Shown piece by piece: positions 8,748-24,237 of a DNA stretch of 24,237 nucleotides; the first letter of the stretch is position 1, and every line of letters begins with the position of its first letter. The stretch lies in IMG/VR virus record IMGVR_UViG_3300018080_000586, positions 1 to 24,237 of that record; one strand, written 5' to 3'. The notes beneath the pieces are model-generated. The model was not told the DNA's origin. It made no database searches and saw only the letters and a list, made by a program, of their open reading frames with translations. The stretch comes from a virus. The position numbers and the translations under genes were made by a program.

Positions 8748-9137
8748 ATGCAGTATTTAGTGAAACCTAACTACACTATTGAATGGGCTGACGGTAAAAA
8801 CCGTCAGACCCTCAAAGGTGGTGTAGAAGTCGAGATATCTGAAAAACTAGTGAAGCTTATCGAAAAAGAGCTAGACAGTCCTTTTTCAACTAAGGTAAAA
8901 CTTGTTAGTGAAAAGATCAACGACGATAAAGATGCAGAGTCACAGGGCACCAATAAAGGCGAGATGAAAGTCGAAGCTATTAGCGGTGTGGGTGCAGCGT
9001 CAGTAACAGTACTTAACGGTGTTGGTATTGAGACTGTTCAAGACCTTGTAGACGCAGACCCAGAGGATGAGAAATACGCAGACATTGATAAAATGGAAGC
9101 GTGGATCGCCTCTGCCAAGGCTTTTTTAGAGGCTTAG
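8748..9137 (+). CDS. Small head-tail connector-region protein with helix-hairpin-helix-like C-terminus
   Basis: A 129-residue protein after the major capsid gene, with AAGGAG before its ATG. Residues about 1-55 are a small beta/alpha unit (YLVKPNYTIEWADGK). The C-terminus from about residue 80 (ISGVGAASVTVLNGVGIETV) contains two GVG turns typical of helix-hairpin-helix or SAM-like folds. The layout resembles Mu gp35/HI1506-type proteins in the same slot. Such a fold could bind DNA at the portal vertex or act only in protein contacts. The match is by pattern, not confirmed. Confidence 0.5.
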   Translation: MQYLVKPNYTIEWADGKNRQTLKGGVEVEISEKLVKLIEKELDSPFSTKVKLVSEKINDDKDAESQGTNKGEMKVEAISGVGAASVTVLNGVGIETVQDLVDADPEDEKYADIDKMEAWIASAKAFLEA

Positions 9138-9138
9138 C

Positions 9139-9915
9139 ATGGGAATGCAACTGTATCCAACAACATGGGCCAAGTACCAGCAGGGAGATCTCTCCCTGCT
9201 GGACACCCATGGCGTTATTTTCCTCACAGCAGACTACATCTTTGATAGTGCCCACGAGTCAATAACGGACATACCCGAGGATGCTATCGTTGCTACCGGG
9301 AATCTCTCACAAATCACATACGACGCACCAACAAACAAATTTTTAGTATCCGATATATCCGTAAATAACACGGAAGAGGATAATATCACAGGTTTGATGC
9401 TTTATCGACAGAATGACCTACAAGCAGAGAGCTTTCTTGTGTGGTACTCTGACGACATTGCAGGACTACCCCTCGTATCAACGGGTGGAGACCTCACGAT
9501 ATCCTTTCCCGACGGCCTTTTACAGATCACCGAGAGCGGATACACCAATAGTGGTATCGTCATCACAGAGGTATTAGGGACATCGTTTGAACAACAAATA
9601 TCCCTAGATATCGACAACAACCTAATGCACCCCGGCGAGTTCCCACGCCAAGTAATCTATAAGTACGTGAACAACCCAGATCCGGTTGTGCTTATGGCGC
9701 TTATTACCGCCATTCCAAAGGACACCGAGATAGAGGGTATAACGGCTACCACAGGCACTATAAAGCTCAAAGTGAACAACAACAGTATCACGGGAACTAT
9801 CCGAGAGGGAGACCTTGTTACAGTGGATGGAATAACCCACACCGTTGTCACATGGAACCGAGAGGTTTACACCTCCGACATCTATGCAGCACCAACCATT
9901 GAGGATATACCGTAA
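9139..9915 (+). CDS. Unrecognised structural protein, connector region
   Basis: A 258-residue protein that I do not recognise. It is rich in beta-prone Thr/Val/Ile, with few Cys, no signal peptide and no membrane segment. A central pattern of alternating hydrophobic residues (GLMLYRQNDL, then ESFLVWYSDD) suggests a beta-sandwich virion protein. It sits between the helix-hairpin-helix protein and the gp37-like protein, a place that in Mu-like phages encodes neck or head-completion proteins. A second in-frame ATG at 9145 is possible. A perfect 12-base inverted repeat (9177-9202) lies within its first 22 codons. Confidence 0.75.
   Translation: MGMQLYPTTWAKYQQGDLSLLDTHGVIFLTADYIFDSAHESITDIPEDAIVATGNLSQITYDAPTNKFLVSDISVNNTEEDNITGLMLYRQNDLQAESFLVWYSDDIAGLPLVSTGGDLTISFPDGLLQITESGYTNSGIVITEVLGTSFEQQISLDIDNNLMHPGEFPRQVIYKYVNNPDPVVLMALITAIPKDTEIEGITATTGTIKLKVNNNSITGTIREGDLVTVDGITHTVVTWNREVYTSDIYAAPTIEDIP
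9177..9202 (+). repeat. Perfect 12-base inverted repeat inside the 5' end of a gene
   Basis: CCAGCAGGGAGA (9177-9188) and TCTCCCTGCTGG (9191-9202) are exact reverse complements separated by two bases. In RNA this would be a stem of about 10 pairs with a 6-base loop. It lies 39 bases after the start codon at 9139. No T-run follows. Confidence 0.75.
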
Positions 9916-10721: not shown

Positions 10722-12149
10722 TTGGGCTCAAAAACAGGAATATGGACACCTACGGTAGCTCTTGATCTTTCCCGCGACAATAGAGTTGGTGATGGAGGGT
10801 TTTTCCCCACACAGTCTCTCATTGTCGGACAAAAGGTCACTGCAGGAACCGCAGAAAATGGATCAATTCACAAAGTCTCTTCGCTCTCAGAAGTGGAGCA
10901 ACTTTGCGGAAAAGGCAGTCAGTTGTATGACTTAATGAAGTCATACTTTTCGTACACATCCACACAGCCGGTGTATATCGGGGTGCTAGACGATGCGGAC
11001 ACCGCAACCAAGTATAGCAACTCATTTACCCTTACGGTTACTGACCCAGAGGCGGGTGTTCTCGGCATTCGTGTAAACGATGAGAAATACACCGTAGCTG
11101 TAACAGATGCAGACACAGCAACCACGCTCGGTGATAGAATTGTGGCCGCTCTCGAAGATGCTGCACACTATTACGAGGTGACAAACGCTCTAGGTGTTGT
11201 GAAATTTGAATGTCGCAACGGCGGTTTGGCTGTAGGTGGTGTGGATGTACGCTTCTCCCCAGACAGTGAAGATACACCCCCAACAGGTGTTACTGTTGCT
11301 GATGGTGTAGTAGTAGCAGGGACTATCGACCCTGACGTGGACGACGTTCTAATGAATGTCGGAGATACCTACTTTATCAACATGTGGGGACCTTATGCAG
11401 ATACGGCGTCTCTTCAAAAATTCATTGACAAACTGAATACACTCGGCGATAAGTACAATGCTGCTGACAGTATTTACCATACTATCGTTCGTGGAACAGC
11501 TTCTACCATCCGTGCTAAAGCACAGGCTCTCCGGTCTATCCGCTTTGCCTTGCACTGCATCGAGGGTATGAAACAGTCAGTAAACAACTACCTCGGTACC
11601 AGCGCACGGGAAGTAACCACAAGTATTGCAAAAGATGTCAATAAACCACTACACAACCTCAGACTACGCGGAGTTCGTGTGTGGTCGGACGGTCTTGAGT
11701 GGTCTGAGCGCAATTCACTTGCCGGAGACGGTGTGGCCACTATCAACCCAGAAACGGGCGAACTAGAGGCTCCAGTTACTTGCTACGTGGCGACAGATGA
11801 TGAGCGTCGATGGGAAAACATCTTCGCACTCTCCTACATGCGCAGATCGTTCCGTGACCATATCACAGGCATGTACGGACAAGCGGTGATTATCACCCGT
11901 CCCGGCGCAACTATCAGCCCATCTAAAAAGGTGATTACTCTCGCAACAGCGCGTGTATCAGCAATTAGTTGGTATGCCGATCAGGTTCGTGCGGCTCACG
12001 CACAGGATGAACAGCGTTTTGCTGACGAGCTACTAGTAAGCCTTGCTGACAGTGACACTATCGAGTGGTTCCTACCGGTAACACTTGTCGTGCCTTTCGT
12101 AGTTGGTGATGGTCTTATTTCATATCGACAAATCTCGGAAGAGGAGTAA
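10722..12149 (+). CDS. Tail sheath protein (Mu gpL family), TTG start
   Basis: The contractile sheath subunit, 475 residues (Mu gpL about 495). The N-terminus (GIWTPTVALDLSRDN) and the C-terminal domain with RRWENIFALSYMRRSF, DHITGMYGQ and ending near VTLVVPFVVGDGLISY fit the sheath family. Between them is a variable outer domain with beta repeats (EAGVLGIRVND). It begins with TTG at 10722, 5 bases after AGGAGG (10711-10716); the next in-frame ATG is more than 60 codons in, so TTG is needed. It is followed at three bases by the tube gene. Confidence 0.92.
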   Translation: MGSKTGIWTPTVALDLSRDNRVGDGGFFPTQSLIVGQKVTAGTAENGSIHKVSSLSEVEQLCGKGSQLYDLMKSYFSYTSTQPVYIGVLDDADTATKYSNSFTLTVTDPEAGVLGIRVNDEKYTVAVTDADTATTLGDRIVAALEDAAHYYEVTNALGVVKFECRNGGLAVGGVDVRFSPDSEDTPPTGVTVADGVVVAGTIDPDVDDVLMNVGDTYFINMWGPYADTASLQKFIDKLNTLGDKYNAADSIYHTIVRGTASTIRAKAQALRSIRFALHCIEGMKQSVNNYLGTSAREVTTSIAKDVNKPLHNLRLRGVRVWSDGLEWSERNSLAGDGVATINPETGELEAPVTCYVATDDERRWENIFALSYMRRSFRDHITGMYGQAVIITRPGATISPSKKVITLATARVSAISWYADQVRAAHAQDEQRFADELLVSLADSDTIEWFLPVTLVVPFVVGDGLISYRQISEEE

Positions 12150-12152
12150 ACC

Positions 12153-12557
12153 ATGGGACTAATAGCACCAGGTAATGACACAATCGCAGGACCAGTCAAA
12201 TTGGACTGTAATGGAACACAAATTCTCATTGAGGGTTCGTGGAAATCCTCGAAGGGCAACACCAACGGTGAAGTCCTTCGTACACCAACCAACCAAACAG
12301 CGGGTGTCAAGCGGACACCCGGCGGGGGCTATGTAGAGGGTAATGCTTTCGTGGATAAGGCTTTCATTGAGAATGTCCTAGCACCAGCAGAAAGCATCCT
12401 CACACAGCGCACTACTGTTACTCTTACGCTACCTACTGGAGATCTTTTCGTTCTTACGAATGCGTTCTTTGTAGCTGACGGAGAGATGGATTCGGATTCT
12501 GGTGTAATGGCTATGCGTTGGGAAGGTGACGGCGAGATTACACCGCTTGACGCATAA
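12153..12557 (+). CDS. Tail tube protein (Mu gpM family)
   Basis: A 134-residue protein forming the inner tube around which the sheath contracts. It follows the sheath gene directly, as in all contractile-tail phages, and has the beta-rich character expected, with TVTLTLPTGDLFVLTNAFF and a closing GDGEITPLDA. Mu gpM is of similar size (about 118). GGAG lies before its ATG. An 8-base GC-rich hairpin (12301-12321) is present in the coding sequence. Confidence 0.88.
   Translation: MGLIAPGNDTIAGPVKLDCNGTQILIEGSWKSSKGNTNGEVLRTPTNQTAGVKRTPGGGYVEGNAFVDKAFIENVLAPAESILTQRTTVTLTLPTGDLFVLTNAFFVADGEMDSDSGVMAMRWEGDGEITPLDA
12301..12321 (+). repeat. GC-rich 8-base stem-loop in the tube gene
   Basis: CGGGTGTC (12301-12308) and GACACCCG (12314-12321) are exact reverse complements with a 5-base loop AAGCG. 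It lies about 50 codons into the tube gene. It could slow ribosomes or be incidental. Confidence 0.45.
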
Positions 12558-12595: not shown

Positions 12596-13150
12596 ATGAG
12601 TGAAAATGTAGTAGAAGTTGAACAAGTAGACGAAACACCCAAGGTTATCCACACGGGCCTCCAGTCTGAGGCTTTTAAAGAAGCCGTAGCACAGGAGGAA
12701 GAGTGGACCAGCGAAGAGTTGGGAGAGCACGAAGGGGAGGACACTACGGATAGTGGTGTCTGCCCCGATAAGAACAATCCCAACATCATTGACATCTCGA
12801 AGGTGGATCAGGTGGAGTTTCGTAGACTATTTATCGAGCTTGGAACACCTAAAGTCGGTATCGGGTTTGTGTATGAACTACGCCAACACGTAAAATACAC
12901 GGCTATGGGGGAGACGGAACCTCGTATACTCAAAGAGGTTAAATTCTCAAAAGATGTACGAGCTTCTGACCTAACAGGCTTTGCTGTGGCGGAGATTAAT
13001 GAAGGCTTGAAAACCGGACGTATGGCACAACTCATTTCGATAGTGTGCGGTATTCCGAAACAGGCGGCCCTTAACTTGGGACTGGCCGACATCGCAGATT
13101 TAGGAGCGTATGTTGTCAGTTTTTTAGTGAATGGACCGAAGAGTATCTAG
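12596..13150 (+). CDS. Tail assembly chaperone, zero-frame product (Mu gp41 family)
   Basis: A 184-residue protein between tube and tape measure, the invariable place for the chaperone that holds the tape measure during tail assembly. The first 65 residues are acidic and probably disordered. The rest, from VDQVEFRRLFIELG on, with ILKEVKFSKDVRASDL and ending GAYVVSFLVNG, fits the Mu gp41 / P2 E family, including the hydrophobic block just before the recoding site. AGGAAG precedes the ATG. A fraction of ribosomes should slip at 13120-13126 to make the longer form. Confidence 0.85.
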   Translation: MSENVVEVEQVDETPKVIHTGLQSEAFKEAVAQEEEWTSEELGEHEGEDTTDSGVCPDKNNPNIIDISKVDQVEFRRLFIELGTPKVGIGFVYELRQHVKYTAMGETEPRILKEVKFSKDVRASDLTGFAVAEINEGLKTGRMAQLISIVCGIPKQAALNLGLADIADLGAYVVSFLVNGPKSI

Positions 13151-13302
13151 CCTTCCAAATGCTCACCGTGGACGCATTTAAGTGGTCCCCCGCGGATCAC
13201 TTACAATGCACCTACGAGGAGATACGGTCCTTTAGAAAACTGGCCGAAGATAGAATCGCCCTACGACAAAAGGCAATGAAGGCGGGGCTATGGATATCAT
13301 AG
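12596..13302 (+). CDS. Tail assembly chaperone, -1 frameshift fusion (Mu gp41/42, P2 E+E' type)
   Basis: A -1 slip at the heptamer T-TTT-TTA (13120-13126) joins the first 177 residues of the chaperone to 58 residues read from 13126 to a TAG at 13300-13302, giving 235 residues. The extension begins SEWTEEYLAFQMLTVDAF and has an aromatic-rich helix then a charged helix (EEIRSFRKLAEDR), as expected of the P2 E' / Mu gp42 domain that binds the tape measure. The -1 frame is open from before the heptamer to the stop, has no ribosome site of its own, and fills the otherwise unexplained gap up to the tape measure gene. The zero-frame stop lies only 8 codons after the slip. Confidence 0.88.
13102..13126 (+). 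promoter_or_regulatory. Programmed -1 frameshift site with SD-like stimulator
   Basis: The heptamer TTTTTTA at 13120-13126 is in the correct phase (X XXY YYZ, zero-frame codons TTT-TTA). AGGAG (13102-13106) lies 13 bases upstream, like the internal Shine-Dalgarno stimulator of dnaX-type frameshifting. Phage P2 uses the near-identical TTTTTTG. A weak downstream stem (GGACC 13133-13137 with GGTCC 13184-13188) is not compelling. Confidence 0.85.
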
Positions 13303-13330: not shown

Positions 13331-15346
13331 ATGGCATTAAACACCGCCCCAATTATTGTACCGATAGAAGCCCGTAACAAAACAGGTAAAGGGCTCACAA
13401 GCGTACAAAAGAATCTAAAATCTTTTGCCGCATTCTCCACCCGAGCTGGCCTGGGAATGACAGCCGCCATCACAACGCCACTAGCAATGTTTGAGAGGGG
13501 TATACTCTCTACAGCATTTGGGGCATCTGAATCTCTTGCCTACATGAAAGCCAATATCGACCAAAATGGCGTATCCTTGAGACAGCTCCAACAACAGACA
13601 ATCAGCACGGCCTCGTCTAACATAAAAACTGTAAGACAAATTGCCGATATGAACAAGGAGCTCGGTAAGGGCGGTATGAAATCTACGGAGATATCTGCGT
13701 TGATGACACCCGCAGTAAACCTAGCAACCGTTGTAGAGGGTGAGACGGCTCTTGTCGCTAAAACCCTTTCCACCATTAACGCGGTATATCCAGAGATTAC
13801 AAAGACTACAAGAGACGCGTCACGTGCTATGGATATGGTAGCTGCAACAGTGACGGGATCTCCACAGGACTTTGACGACTACTCAGATGCTATGCAACAC
13901 ACAATCGGTGTGGCTAAGAGCATGGGGATGACATTCAAGGAGCTTAATCAGTCTATAGGACTCCACGCATTCTTTGGTATCAAAGGATCTCGTGTAGGGG
14001 CACAGACCAAAGCACAATTACGGATGTTCACAGAACAGAAGAAGATGGCGGAGCTTTTCGGACTACAAGGGTCTGATGAACGAGGACGTCTTAAAAAACC
14101 ATCACAACTATTCCGTGAGATGAGCGATCGTTTGTATGCCCCCGGGGTGTCACAACAGGAACGACTCACGAGACTAAAATCAATATTCGGCAGAATCGGT
14201 ATCACCGGAGCATCTGCGGCAATGTTAGACCTTCAGCAACCAAAGGGCAAGGCATCTTTTGAGAAGATGGCGGATACTTTGGAGAGATCAGAAGGTCTTA
14301 TCAATCGAATGATAAACACTCTTCTAGGCGAAGGACTCTTCGGAACCTATAAGAAGATGGCTGCGTCTTTTGATGCAATGAAAGTGCGTATAGGCTTTGC
14401 ACAAGAAGGTATGCTCACCACAGCCATGAAGGGCTTAACCACCCTATTCAATGCTATAGGAGTGATACCTAAACCTATCATACAGGGACTCACTGTATTT
14501 GCCGCAGGTCTGGTTGCTATGGGGCCGGCCCTGTTGATAGCCGGGACCCTTGCTAACATTGTGGTAGCATTCTCCCTAGCTGCAGGGCCGATAACCGCTA
14601 TGGTGTCTGGGGCGGGTAAATTAGCTGTCGTAGGCAAGGTGTTGGGGGCAGTATTCAGCGGGCCACTCCTTTTGGTGATGGGCAAATTACTACTCGTGGT
14701 GGGTGTTATCACAGGGGCAGTAGCCGCTCTTGTTGGAATGGGGCAGAGAGCCGCAGAGCTTAACCAACAAATAGAGACGGGCACCTCGAAGTTCAAAAAC
14801 CTTGAAGAGCTTATGAAACTGACAGGAGACGAGACCAACAAGGCCACAGGGTTGTTGGGCATATTCTCGGACATGTTAAAAAACATCTCCCAGATACTAA
14901 AACCTCTAGTGGATTGGTACTACGCCCGTAAAGACCGCATAGCAGGGGAAAAACTTCAGACATTGAAACAGGCAAAGGGTGTGGCCGACCCCACGACACA
15001 TGACCTTCTCACAAGGGTGATGACGGATAGTGCGGCGAGAAGAGGAACAAACCCACTCCTTGCTGGGTCTATCTACTCCTTTGGTGGTCGTACAAAGATG
15101 CTAGAGAAAGCACTAGCCAGCCCACAGATGTCACAAGCTACCAAAGAAGCTGAGATAGAGAAATATATCAAAGCGTTTGCGACTACCGACATTATAGCAC
15201 AGCTAGAGGCGTCTAAAGGGGCGGGAATGTACAATGAATACGGAAACCAGTCACCATCCACAATAAACTTGTCTATCCGTAATGCAACCTCCTACGGTCT
15301 CGACATCGAAGAAGAAGCAGCAGTACCAACGGCGAATATTCAATAG
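13331..15346 (+). CDS. Tail tape measure protein
   Basis: A 671-residue protein that sets tail length and is packed inside the tube; at roughly 0.15 nm per residue it predicts a tail of about 100 nm. The N-terminal half is helical with coiled-coil-like, Gln/Lys-rich segments (LRQLQQQTISTASSNIKT) and a phage-tail tape measure type core (about residues 110-330, e.g. EITKTTRDASRAMDMVAATV, then a GITGASAAMLDL segment). A long hydrophobic region at about residues 377-470 (Gly/Ala/Val/Leu) would cross the inner membrane during DNA injection. GGAG (13322-13325) precedes the ATG. It lies directly after the frameshift product, its expected partner. Confidence 0.9.
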   Translation: MALNTAPIIVPIEARNKTGKGLTSVQKNLKSFAAFSTRAGLGMTAAITTPLAMFERGILSTAFGASESLAYMKANIDQNGVSLRQLQQQTISTASSNIKTVRQIADMNKELGKGGMKSTEISALMTPAVNLATVVEGETALVAKTLSTINAVYPEITKTTRDASRAMDMVAATVTGSPQDFDDYSDAMQHTIGVAKSMGMTFKELNQSIGLHAFFGIKGSRVGAQTKAQLRMFTEQKKMAELFGLQGSDERGRLKKPSQLFREMSDRLYAPGVSQQERLTRLKSIFGRIGITGASAAMLDLQQPKGKASFEKMADTLERSEGLINRMINTLLGEGLFGTYKKMAASFDAMKVRIGFAQEGMLTTAMKGLTTLFNAIGVIPKPIIQGLTVFAAGLVAMGPALLIAGTLANIVVAFSLAAGPITAMVSGAGKLAVVGKVLGAVFSGPLLLVMGKLLLVVGVITGAVAALVGMGQRAAELNQQIETGTSKFKNLEELMKLTGDETNKATGLLGIFSDMLKNISQILKPLVDWYYARKDRIAGEKLQTLKQAKGVADPTTHDLLTRVMTDSAARRGTNPLLAGSIYSFGGRTKMLEKALASPQMSQATKEAEIEKYIKAFATTDIIAQLEASKGAGMYNEYGNQSPSTINLSIRNATSYGLDIEEEAAVPTANIQ

Positions 15347-20538: not shown

Positions 20539-21317
20539 TGGCATTCCCTATTCGAGACATCGAGCAAATTACAAGCAGTGTATTTTCTCTGATGCCACGC
20601 TCTCGGTTCTGGTCTAAAACCCCTATAGATGTTGTGAGTGGCGAAGGCGCCCAAGCACCTTTTATAGAACAAGAGAGTGAGAATCTACCCGACGAGGTGG
20701 ACTGGAGATCGTATGGAGTCCTTTACCGTCTTTTCATGGCACCCGCTATCCAGATCAAAAAAGCACAACAAAGAGCACAACAAATCATAAATGAGGCCAG
20801 CCCGGGAAGTGCGGTAGGTAGTGTGCGAGACTGGTACCGATACCTATTCAATCTCGCCCCAGACGATATAAGTGACGCCACATTAAAATCCCGCATAGAT
20901 CAGTTTTTGGATGACCGAAGAACGAGATATACCATAGCAGAGGTCACAGCCTACGCACTCGAAAGAGGTGTTACTGTGAGCATATCAAACATGTGGACAA
21001 CAGATGCAGAGGGGGAAGTTCTCGGGATACGAGCCCATACGTCTGTTTGTGGCACGGGGGTTTGTGGCCGGATGCAACTTGGCAAGGTCACAGAGACAGG
21101 GTATGCAGAAGTAGAGGTAACTGATCGAGGATTGACTGGATATACAAACGAGGAGATAAAAGAGCTCCTCACACCCCTCATCTCTGCTGATACAATTATT
21201 AGATGGGTATTTACTGACCAACCAGAAGAAGGGGATATTATTCAAACACTATCCTCCTCGCTAAATGTGGTACAGACCACATCTTCAACGGATAACATAA
21301 TTCAAGGAGTATCATAA
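20538..21317 (+). CDS. Baseplate protein, Mu gp48 / YmfQ (DUF2313) family
   Basis: A 259-residue baseplate protein, the partner of gp47 in Mu-like baseplates. N-terminal helix-rich region (DIEQITSSVFSLMPR, later DDISDATLKSRIDQFLD), then an ERGVTVSISNMWT segment and a conserved two-cysteine block CGTGVCGRM. These patterns and the gp47-gp48-fibre order fit the family. Its last 25 residues are Ser/Thr-rich. The stop overlaps the fibre start by one base. Confidence 0.85.
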   Translation: MAFPIRDIEQITSSVFSLMPRSRFWSKTPIDVVSGEGAQAPFIEQESENLPDEVDWRSYGVLYRLFMAPAIQIKKAQQRAQQIINEASPGSAVGSVRDWYRYLFNLAPDDISDATLKSRIDQFLDDRRTRYTIAEVTAYALERGVTVSISNMWTTDAEGEVLGIRAHTSVCGTGVCGRMQLGKVTETGYAEVEVTDRGLTGYTNEEIKELLTPLISADTIIRWVFTDQPEEGDIIQTLSSSLNVVQTTSSTDNIIQGVS

Positions 21318-24237
21318 TGCCAGCACCGGGACCTAACGATATCGTAAGAGATGTTCTATGGGAGAGTGATTACACAGAGGCAGAACTACGGGCAAATCTA
21401 AAGCCCGGACAAGTTGGCTGTGTAGCTAAAGACACCCACAACTTTATTCAGGTACTCAACGACGAAACTGTTCTATCAGTACCGATGAAAAATACCAATG
21501 GTATTATAAAAGTGAACAGTGACACTACCATGCAAGAGATTCAGGATTACATAGATCTTGGTATTCGGGCGTTTGTCATCGCCGACGCTGGTAGCATAGT
21601 CACACTCACAGGGACATTAAATCTCTCTGCAGGTAACTACTATTTTTACGGACCCATAGGGAATGTGAACGAGCAGGGCAAGTATGTTCTGGAGGATGTT
21701 GTCTTTGACACCGGAAATATCGCTGGAAATACCGCGTCAATATCCTTCCTCACCAACACCGAGACTAAGGGAAGTGTGGAAGTGATTGGGAATTTTGTGA
21801 GTCTTATCATAGACACACTACGCTCCGCTGAAACAACCACATTCACATCTGTACTCCCCACGTATATTGAGCACTTTATCTCAGATGTTGCAGGAGACCC
21901 AAACCCGGAGATTTTAGAGGCGGACGAGGTTTCTCGTGTAAAATATCAATACCGTACCGGGATATCAAACGTCCTCAAGAACTACCAAGGAACGGACGTC
22001 ACAGGGATTCGTAAAGAGGAGTGGAGACGGAAGAACCCCACCATAAATGAAAACCCCTCACAAACGGACTACCTACCACAATCCAATCCCCTACCCCACA
22101 AAGAAGGTCGTGTGTATTACGATGAAGCGTCTCGCAGCCTTGTCTATTACAATGACAAAACAGAAGTAAAGATGAACATAGGCCGAGAATTGTGGATGCG
22201 AGGGGTAAATAACACGGGCGAGGACATACTGAACGGCCAGGTGGTATACGCCGACACAGCATCGGGAGGCCTTCCATCATTCAATTTAGCGGATGCCGAT
22301 GCCTACGATAAGCAAGTTGTGATGGGTGTCGCCACGATGGACATACCGGCGGGGGAAGAAGGTGAGATAACATCCTTCGGGGCGGTGAATGGCTTCGATA
22401 CGTCACACTTGACAGAGGGTGCGGAGATATACCTTTCAACTACTCCAGGTCTCCTAACAAGCGACAGACCATCGTTTCCGGCTAAAGCGGTTATGGTTGG
22501 AGGCTGTACGGTGTCCGACGCTACAAACGGTTCTGTATTTGTTATTATTAAAGAAGACAACTACATGTATCAATTCGACGGTTGCATTGTAGAGAAACAA
22601 GACACAGAAGTAAGAGTGGAAGCGGATAATAAAGTGTACATGTATGTCGAGAAGCTCGGAGGTGGTGATCTACCGGTACAGCTAGAATCTGCCGTCCACT
22701 TACTTGATTGCACCACGGTCAAAGGCTACGCAGGACTCCCTACAGAGACGCGAGCACGGGTTGAACTTGTACAGGGGACTGCTACAGTACCGCAATACAA
22801 TAATACCCACATAGAACTTGTCGGTGGTGTTGCGGAGTTGCATAATACAACTTCATACCCGACGGTTCCTTTCGCCCCTATATCGCAAACAACCATACGT
22901 GACTATGTTACTGTTGCTACTGAAGGCCCAGACGCTAATAGAAGAGTCACTAGCTCGATCAACCACGATGGCAGAGGTCGGATATCATACCTTATCGAAA
23001 GGTGGCAACAAGAGTCACCAAAATGGAGTAGCGGAGTAACTCCGACGGCTACTATTACCGACTTATCTACTGACATAATGGACTTCTCAACTCTTGCGGG
23101 TGTGGTATACCAGACACACAGGCAAACCATGCCCGCACTCCAGGTAAGTGTGGACGGGATCACTGTTGCCAATGGTCCTGGAGGGGCAGGTATCGCACCT
23201 TTTACAAAAGTCACAAATCTTTTAGATATCTGCGGGTATACCTCGGTAGATGAAGCGCGTAACACCAACTCGAGAGGGCATATCGTTGTCTTTGGGCTTG
23301 TCAATAAGGAGACTTCGGAGTGTAAGTTGATGGTGAACCTGCCAAACGCCTTATATGGTGGTAATGATGCCCAAGCATTTAATGATTATAATGGTACAGC
23401 AGTAAACAGTGTAACAAAAGATTTAGCTTATACAACGTTCCTTATTGCTCGTATTCAATATGATATTTCTAATGCTGACAGTGTTCGTTTTATTGACTCA
23501 GATGGTAACACTACAACTGATGGTAGTGAGATAGTAAATCTACTTGGTACTCCACTAGGTATTATTGGTGGAGGGGCAGGTAGTGCATCTTCCTATATAC
23601 CAACGATCGCACAGGTTCTTGGGGAGGGTAATGACGCCGGAGCAACACAGATCAAGAATATCGCCGATGCTACAGACCCACAAGATGCCACACCGTATAG
23701 CCAGGTTGAGGGACTCGTCATTGCGGGAAATGCACTTAGAAGCTTTACGGGCCGGCCGCAGGTAACTGTACAGGACGTTATCGACGCGGGAGACACCCTC
23801 ATAAGCGCAAATAGCGAAACAATCTCCGGCACAATAGTATTCAAAAGGGGAGCAGATTATCACTTCTATGGGGATGTATACTTTGGGGGGGACGTTACCT
23901 TTCAATGCCCTAATAATGGCGATAGACCCCCGACGCTTTTCTTTCACGGGGATGCTTATATTTCTTTCGACAAGTCTCTAGGCACTACACAGACGCTCGA
24001 CTTCGGATCGTTCGGTGGTGGGGCTATTGAGTTTAGAAAAAATCTTATTATCGGGTATGCAACGGATAGCGACCCAACTAACAAGATCGTTCTAACCGGA
24101 GATATCTACGCAAGTAAGATACTCGCGCAATCAATCCCACCGGTTTTACTAGACATAACAGATACCCTCTATTATGAGGAGTCTACTATTGACGGCACGA
24201 TTACCGTTAGTGGTAGCCTAACGAACCAGTGGTGGAA
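21317..24237 (+). CDS. Tail fibre / receptor-binding protein, partial (3' end beyond window)
   Basis: Open from ATG 21317 (overlapping the previous stop, AAGGAG upstream) to the window edge with no stop: at least 973 residues. The position after gp48 is that of Mu tail fibre S. The N-terminal 60 residues probably attach to the baseplate. A beta-helix-like segment follows (AGNYYFYGPIGN, about residues 104-115), then a widespread fibre domain with ELWMRGVNNTGEDILNGQVV and GAEIYLSTTPGLLTSDRP. A region around 890 has a second YHFYG segment (from 848) and repeated strands, again beta-helix-like. A low-GC stretch at 23341-23580 differs from its flanks. Host specificity would lie in the C-terminal part. 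Confidence 0.85.
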   Translation, partial: MPAPGPNDIVRDVLWESDYTEAELRANLKPGQVGCVAKDTHNFIQVLNDETVLSVPMKNTNGIIKVNSDTTMQEIQDYIDLGIRAFVIADAGSIVTLTGTLNLSAGNYYFYGPIGNVNEQGKYVLEDVVFDTGNIAGNTASISFLTNTETKGSVEVIGNFVSLIIDTLRSAETTTFTSVLPTYIEHFISDVAGDPNPEILEADEVSRVKYQYRTGISNVLKNYQGTDVTGIRKEEWRRKNPTINENPSQTDYLPQSNPLPHKEGRVYYDEASRSLVYYNDKTEVKMNIGRELWMRGVNNTGEDILNGQVVYADTASGGLPSFNLADADAYDKQVVMGVATMDIPAGEEGEITSFGAVNGFDTSHLTEGAEIYLSTTPGLLTSDRPSFPAKAVMVGGCTVSDATNGSVFVIIKEDNYMYQFDGCIVEKQDTEVRVEADNKVYMYVEKLGGGDLPVQLESAVHLLDCTTVKGYAGLPTETRARVELVQGTATVPQYNNTHIELVGGVAELHNTTSYPTVPFAPISQTTIRDYVTVATEGPDANRRVTSSINHDGRGRISYLIERWQQESPKWSSGVTPTATITDLSTDIMDFSTLAGVVYQTHRQTMPALQVSVDGITVANGPGGAGIAPFTKVTNLLDICGYTSVDEARNTNSRGHIVVFGLVNKETSECKLMVNLPNALYGGNDAQAFNDYNGTAVNSVTKDLAYTTFLIARIQYDISNADSVRFIDSDGNTTTDGSEIVNLLGTPLGIIGGGAGSASSYIPTIAQVLGEGNDAGATQIKNIADATDPQDATPYSQVEGLVIAGNALRSFTGRPQVTVQDVIDAGDTLISANSETISGTIVFKRGADYHFYGDVYFGGDVTFQCPNNGDRPPTLFFHGDAYISFDKSLGTTQTLDFGSFGGGAIEFRKNLIIGYATDSDPTNKIVLTGDIYASKILAQSIPPVLLDITDTLYYEESTIDGTITVSGSLTNQWW
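23179..23582. repeat. 14-base direct repeat pair in the fibre gene
   Basis: TGGAGGGGCAGGTA occurs at 23179-23192 and 23569-23582, exactly 390 bases (130 codons) apart and in the same reading phase, coding GGAG-type turns. The second copy closes the low-GC block. It may mark a recombination seam or a duplicated loop. Confidence 0.5.

Follow-up and report, generated by a model that had tools for sequence, protein, structure and literature searches.

The window analysed here is the whole of the IMG/VR virus record IMGVR_UViG_3300018080_000586 (24,237 bases), in which a contractile-tail module of the Mu type lies downstream of a lambda-type terminase, portal and capsid. The module is ordered as sheath, tube, chaperone, tape measure, DNA circularisation protein, gp44-like hub and baseplate J. 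On the + strand, the tail sheath gene (10722-12149; phrog_165, E=2.4e-61) and the tail tube gene (12153-12557; PF10618, E=2.7e-10) are followed by a gene for a 184-aa tail assembly chaperone (12596-13150, with the SD sequence AAAGGAA), whose weak matches to PF10109 and phrog_166 point to a short form resembling gpE or gpG, and then by the tape measure gene (13331-15346; PF10145, E=4.1e-19; phrog_1533, E=6.5e-30). This placement of the chaperone gene, between a PF10618 tube gene and a PF10145 tape measure gene, is the one that frameshifted chaperone pairs occupy.

Several other features of the window were recorded. Between 1721 and 21317, head genes of the lambda type (GpA terminase, lambda portal, capsid E) are combined with the Mu-type contractile tail module, and a long ORF (21317-24237), 973 codons so far, leaves the window at its right end in the position usual for a tail fibre. 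The stretch of the window that folds most strongly (1651-1775), with -53.5 kcal/mol over its 125 nt (z -3.8), contains two long hairpins and bridges the junction of ORF 465-1679 with the terminase gene; it may serve in processing, packaging or regulation. A 20-nt perfect palindrome, GCAGGGAGATCTCTCCCTGC, lies at 9180-9199 within ORF 9139-9915. Rfam and tRNA scans returned no matches.

An in-phase slippery heptamer near the end of the chaperone gene

The + strand heptamer T_TTT_TTA occupies positions 13120-13126. The zero-frame codons at the site are AGT (13118-13120), TTT (13121-13123) and TTA (13124-13126), with the T at 13120 completing the heptamer, and this codon phase of ORF 12596-13150 bears out the exact slippery phase that the initial annotation had assigned to it. 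The ORF product ends in ...GAYVVSFLVNGPKSI, and the zero frame past the slip reads VNGPKSI (7 aa) up to the stop at 13148-13150, seven codons after the heptamer. The -1 frame, open from 13075, would add 58 residues after the slip, SEWTEEYLAFQMLTVDAFKWSPADHLQCTYEEIRSFRKLAEDRIALRQKAMKAGLWIS, encoded at 13126-13299 on the + strand and ended by a TAG stop (13300-13302). Only 28 nt separate this stop from the tape measure ATG at 13331, as expected from the earlier reading of a 58-codon frame that closes shortly before the tape measure gene.

Candidate stimulatory elements flank the heptamer on both sides. Upstream, the SD-like AGGAG was indeed located 13 bases before it (13102-13106, + strand), with a predicted anti-SD duplex of -6.5 kcal/mol, a value reached at 5.2% of in-gene positions. 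The spacing of 13 nt falls within the 9-14 nt reported for -1 stimulatory SD elements (PMC5009743), and comparable SD-like elements occur upstream of the heptamer in phages phiNP and PY223 and in the viral contig L011.

Downstream, a 98-nt RNA fold is predicted from the single sequence at 13133-13230 (+ strand; MFE -40.6 kcal/mol), leaving a 6-nt spacer from the heptamer. Its layout resembles a three-way junction, with a GGACC/GGUCC closing stem that encloses two hairpins, one small and one long (the latter at about 13162-13221), and a three-way-junction 3' stimulator is known from IS911 (PMC5009743). The fold is stronger than synonymous-codon nulls (z -3.4 to -4.7) and than dinucleotide shuffles (z -5.3, with boundaries picked after the fact), and lies within the top 0.5% of 400 random in-gene positions when spacer and length were allowed to vary equally. 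Ranked among 966 generic windows of 100 nt, however, the region comes only 21st, and the MFE structure of the wider region also base-pairs the slippery run itself, so that we regard the fold as a good candidate rather than a proven stimulator.

Both reading frames have probable counterparts in distant phages

The chaperone, sheath, terminase, baseplate J, portal and capsid queries retrieved no close relatives from viral contigs, nor did the terminase and sheath queries from genome contigs, and tblastn of the chaperone and extension against phages gave no meaningful match. Since the window's own proteins found no close relative, all comparisons were made with distant phages. A sheath search yielded phiNP, PY223, EPP-1, BgVeeders33, Pmp9 and a Vibrio phage; the phiNP and PY223 extensions, used as queries, yielded the viral contigs L009-L023; and P2, lambda, Mu and a Fusobacterium phage served as references. 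The order sheath-tube-chaperone-tape measure is kept in the distant Mu/P2-type relatives.

At the place matching the window's heptamer, near the chaperone end, an in-phase T_TTT_TTG or T_TTT_TTC was found in P2, phiNP, PY223, EPP-1, BgVeeders33, JD-Fnp2, L009, L010 and nearly all of L011-L023, and the T6A form was seen in none of these relatives. Pmp9 and the Vibrio phage have an annotated chaperone without such an in-phase site. The relatives' -1 extensions span 50-79 codons, and usually 0-10 zero-frame codons are left after the heptamer (3-10 in most, 6 in P2), so the window's seven-residue zero-frame tail, whose length had been correctly read and singled out as a peculiarity, is in fact usual.

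In the zero frame, PF10109 (Phage_TAC_7, described as 'tail assembly chaperone proteins, E, or 41 or 14') matches chaperone residues 119-177 with E=0.018 and 15.5 bits, below its curated cut-off of 25. The match covers profile positions 26-78 of 79 and ends at residue 177, the last ahead of the slip. Phrog_166, which includes the phiNP and PY223 chaperones, matches with E=0.026, and when the 423 six-frame segments were searched with a profile of the relatives' zero-frame proteins, the chaperone ORF scored best (E=0.026, next 0.42). Mu gp41 yielded no signal when profiles were compared. The aligned relatives lack some 75 acidic residues that the chaperone has at its N-terminus (12596-12820).

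For the extension, we built a profile from the extensions of ten relatives, leaving the window out, and searched it against the 423 stop-to-stop six-frame segments of the window. The segment holding the extension (+_f0_13075) came first (E=0.015, next 0.16), and all nine leave-one-out profiles placed it above every other window segment. None of 3000 shuffled extensions scored as high, by a small margin (10.4 bits against 9.7 for the best shuffle). The P2 E' family phrog_1756 matches the extension weakly (E=0.1), PF06528, the P2 E' extension family, gave no match to it, and the core common to the extensions is F-x-W-x-P-x-[DE]-x-L. The matches in both the zero frame and the extension are singly weak (E 0.015-0.1); what persuades is that each frame, independently of the other, matches its own half of the expected pair.

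These comparisons bear on whether the extension might instead be a separate small gene, translated by re-initiation at ATG 13159 after termination at 13148-13150. In favour of this, that ATG lies in the -1 frame, 8 nt past the chaperone stop, and precedes the conserved F-x-W-x-P motif. It lacks an SD, however, its best value being -2.2 kcal/mol as against -4.9 to -10.7 at the 12 other starts checked, and in 7 of the 11 relatives listed the first 25 extension codons contain no start codon, such that the family cannot depend on re-initiation. Re-initiation would, moreover, account for neither the in-phase heptamer nor the fold. We therefore rejected an independent start at ATG 13159, given the missing SD and the absence of a start codon there in most relatives, and consider this reading very improbable.

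The extension carries the phage's own codon bias

A further alternative is that a T6A run and an open -1 frame coincide by chance, with no slippage and no function. We found 20 in-phase X_XXY_YYZ heptamers in the listed + strand genes, two of which (9122 and 13120) lie at most 10 codons from the gene end; of these two, only the one at 13120 opens onto a -1 extension at least 50 codons long. At 2.6% of the codon positions within genes the -1 frame stays open for 58 codons or more, and the joint chance of the site features in the chaperone gene, taken as a rough product, is below 1e-3.

Scored by the phage's own codon usage, the extension reaches 0.253 bits per codon, compared with reference windows at 0.364 +/- 0.136 in frame and -0.256 +/- 0.171 when shifted. 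None of the out-of-frame 57-codon windows matches this score, and the part of the extension beyond the chaperone stop still scores 0.209.

The second end-proximal site (9122-9128) is likewise an in-phase T_TTT_TTA, three codons ahead of the stop in an ORF (8748-9137) that follows the major capsid gene. In favour of chance, it shows that the window's heptamer can also occur at another place in the genome. It opens onto a 45-codon -1 frame overlapping the next gene, and the fold downstream of it is strong (-38.7 kcal/mol). Its extension scores -0.288, a non-coding value, for which reason we rejected it as a coding frameshift. Against chance at 13120 stand the coding score of that extension, in contrast to the one at 9122, and the coincidence there of homology, synteny and 5' and 3' elements, leaving a chance origin with a minimal probability.

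Transcriptional slippage on the T6 run would yield a similar protein from the homopolymeric run that is present. A run of T6 is short for productive RNA polymerase slippage, and ribosomal slippage better suits the exact phase of the codons, the SD-like element and the downstream element, so we give a transcriptional origin of the fusion hardly any credence. A single longer gene broken in two, whether by a recent frameshift mutation or by an indel from sequencing or assembly, is just as improbable, since known relatives are split at the homologous position too, even if the window is a single IMG/VR record without a near relative for comparison.

A model for the chaperone pair and its relation to known systems

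The initial proposal of a programmed -1 frameshift in the tail chaperone gene is thus supported by the coding bias of the extension, by weak homology in both frames, by the position and gene order found in relatives, by an SD-like element whose spacing lies within the reported 9-14 nt and by the downstream fold. We conclude that programmed -1 ribosomal frameshifting very probably yields, from one gene, a tail chaperone pair like E/E+E' of P2. What we show at this locus is the phase of the heptamer, the open -1 frame and its coding bias, the homology in each frame, the synteny and how the fold compares with its nulls; the occurrence of slippage in the window's chaperone gene, and its rate, we infer.

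Under this model, most ribosomes would translate ORF 12596-13150 into the 184-aa chaperone, and a minority would be held at T_TTT_TTA by the contact of AGGAG with 16S behind and the 98-nt fold 6 nt ahead. Two tRNAs would then slip in tandem from TTT_TTA to TTT_TTT, re-pairing one base back, and the product would consist of residues 1-177 fused to the 58 new residues. Its junction would read ...SFL-SEW, or ...SFF-SEW if Phe-tRNA enters in the -1 frame, an ambiguity of the residue at the slip that is also described for the HIV site (PMC5009743). The SFL-SEWTEEY junction first predicted is accordingly one possible form, and SFF before SEWTEEY is the other.

In lambda, the short form is reported to bind the tape measure protein and the extension to recruit tube subunits (PMC5009743). 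By analogy with lambda G/GT and P2 E/E+E', the window's short form would coat the tape measure protein, and the extension of its long form would recruit tail tube subunits, such that the tail polymerises around the tape measure.

The mechanism itself is known and widespread. The chaperone frameshift is reported as conserved in long-tailed dsDNA phages (Xu, Hendrix and Duda 2004, cited in PMC5009743, PMC2628397 and PMC3931495), and the P2 T6G site is established, with T7G and T7C variants on record (PMC3931495). The T6A heptamer and the predicted three-way-junction-like fold are small differences, and our understanding of tail assembly is unchanged by them. No description of a T6A tail-chaperone site was found in the literature searched, most subscription literature lying outside the search. 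It is possible, though we hold this only tentatively, that the T6A site, the three-way-junction-like 98-nt 3' stimulator and the upstream SD act as a set, with the stimulators making up for the weakness that this heptamer shows in E. coli tests; the literature searched held no description of such a combination for phage tail genes. The window adds a very divergent phage to the users of the conserved tail-chaperone frameshift, provides a correct annotation for a coding stretch of ~150 nt that gene finders would miss, and offers a natural T6A site, flanked by candidate 5' and 3' stimulators, with which the T6G sites of P2-type phages can be compared.

The window's arrangement resembles P2 gene E/E+E' (T_TTT_TTG) in its contractile tail, its in-phase T-run heptamer and the tape measure gene that comes next. 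The number of zero-frame codons left (6 in P2, 7 in the window) and the length of the extension (57 and 58 codons) are close, and the F-x-W-x-P-x-[DE]-x-L motif is common to both extensions, with an identity there of ~15%. Unlike in P2, the window's heptamer ends in A, its zero-frame protein is much longer (184 aa), and its extension stops 28 nt ahead of the tape measure gene, whereas the P2 extension overlaps that gene. The Mu-type phages phiNP, PY223, EPP-1 and BgVeeders33 share the tail gene order, most of them with a DNA circularisation protein downstream, and have a T6 heptamer near the chaperone end with a -1 extension of 50-54 codons; in phiNP and PY223 an SD-like element lies 9-11 nt before the heptamer, as it does at 13 nt in the window. 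The window differs from these phages in its T6A heptamer and the ~75 extra N-terminal residues of its chaperone, at 17-23% identity. Lambda G/GT also slips by -1 ahead of the tape measure gene (PMC5009743), the likeness in function being one of analogy, but uses the heptamer G_GGA_AAG and a 144-codon extension in a phage with a long non-contractile tail. Finally, the HIV-1 gag-pol site U_UUU_UUA is the same heptamer as the window's, and IS911 has a three-way-junction 3' stimulator with which the predicted fold may be compared; in both cases the genes and functions are unrelated and any resemblance is mechanical only.
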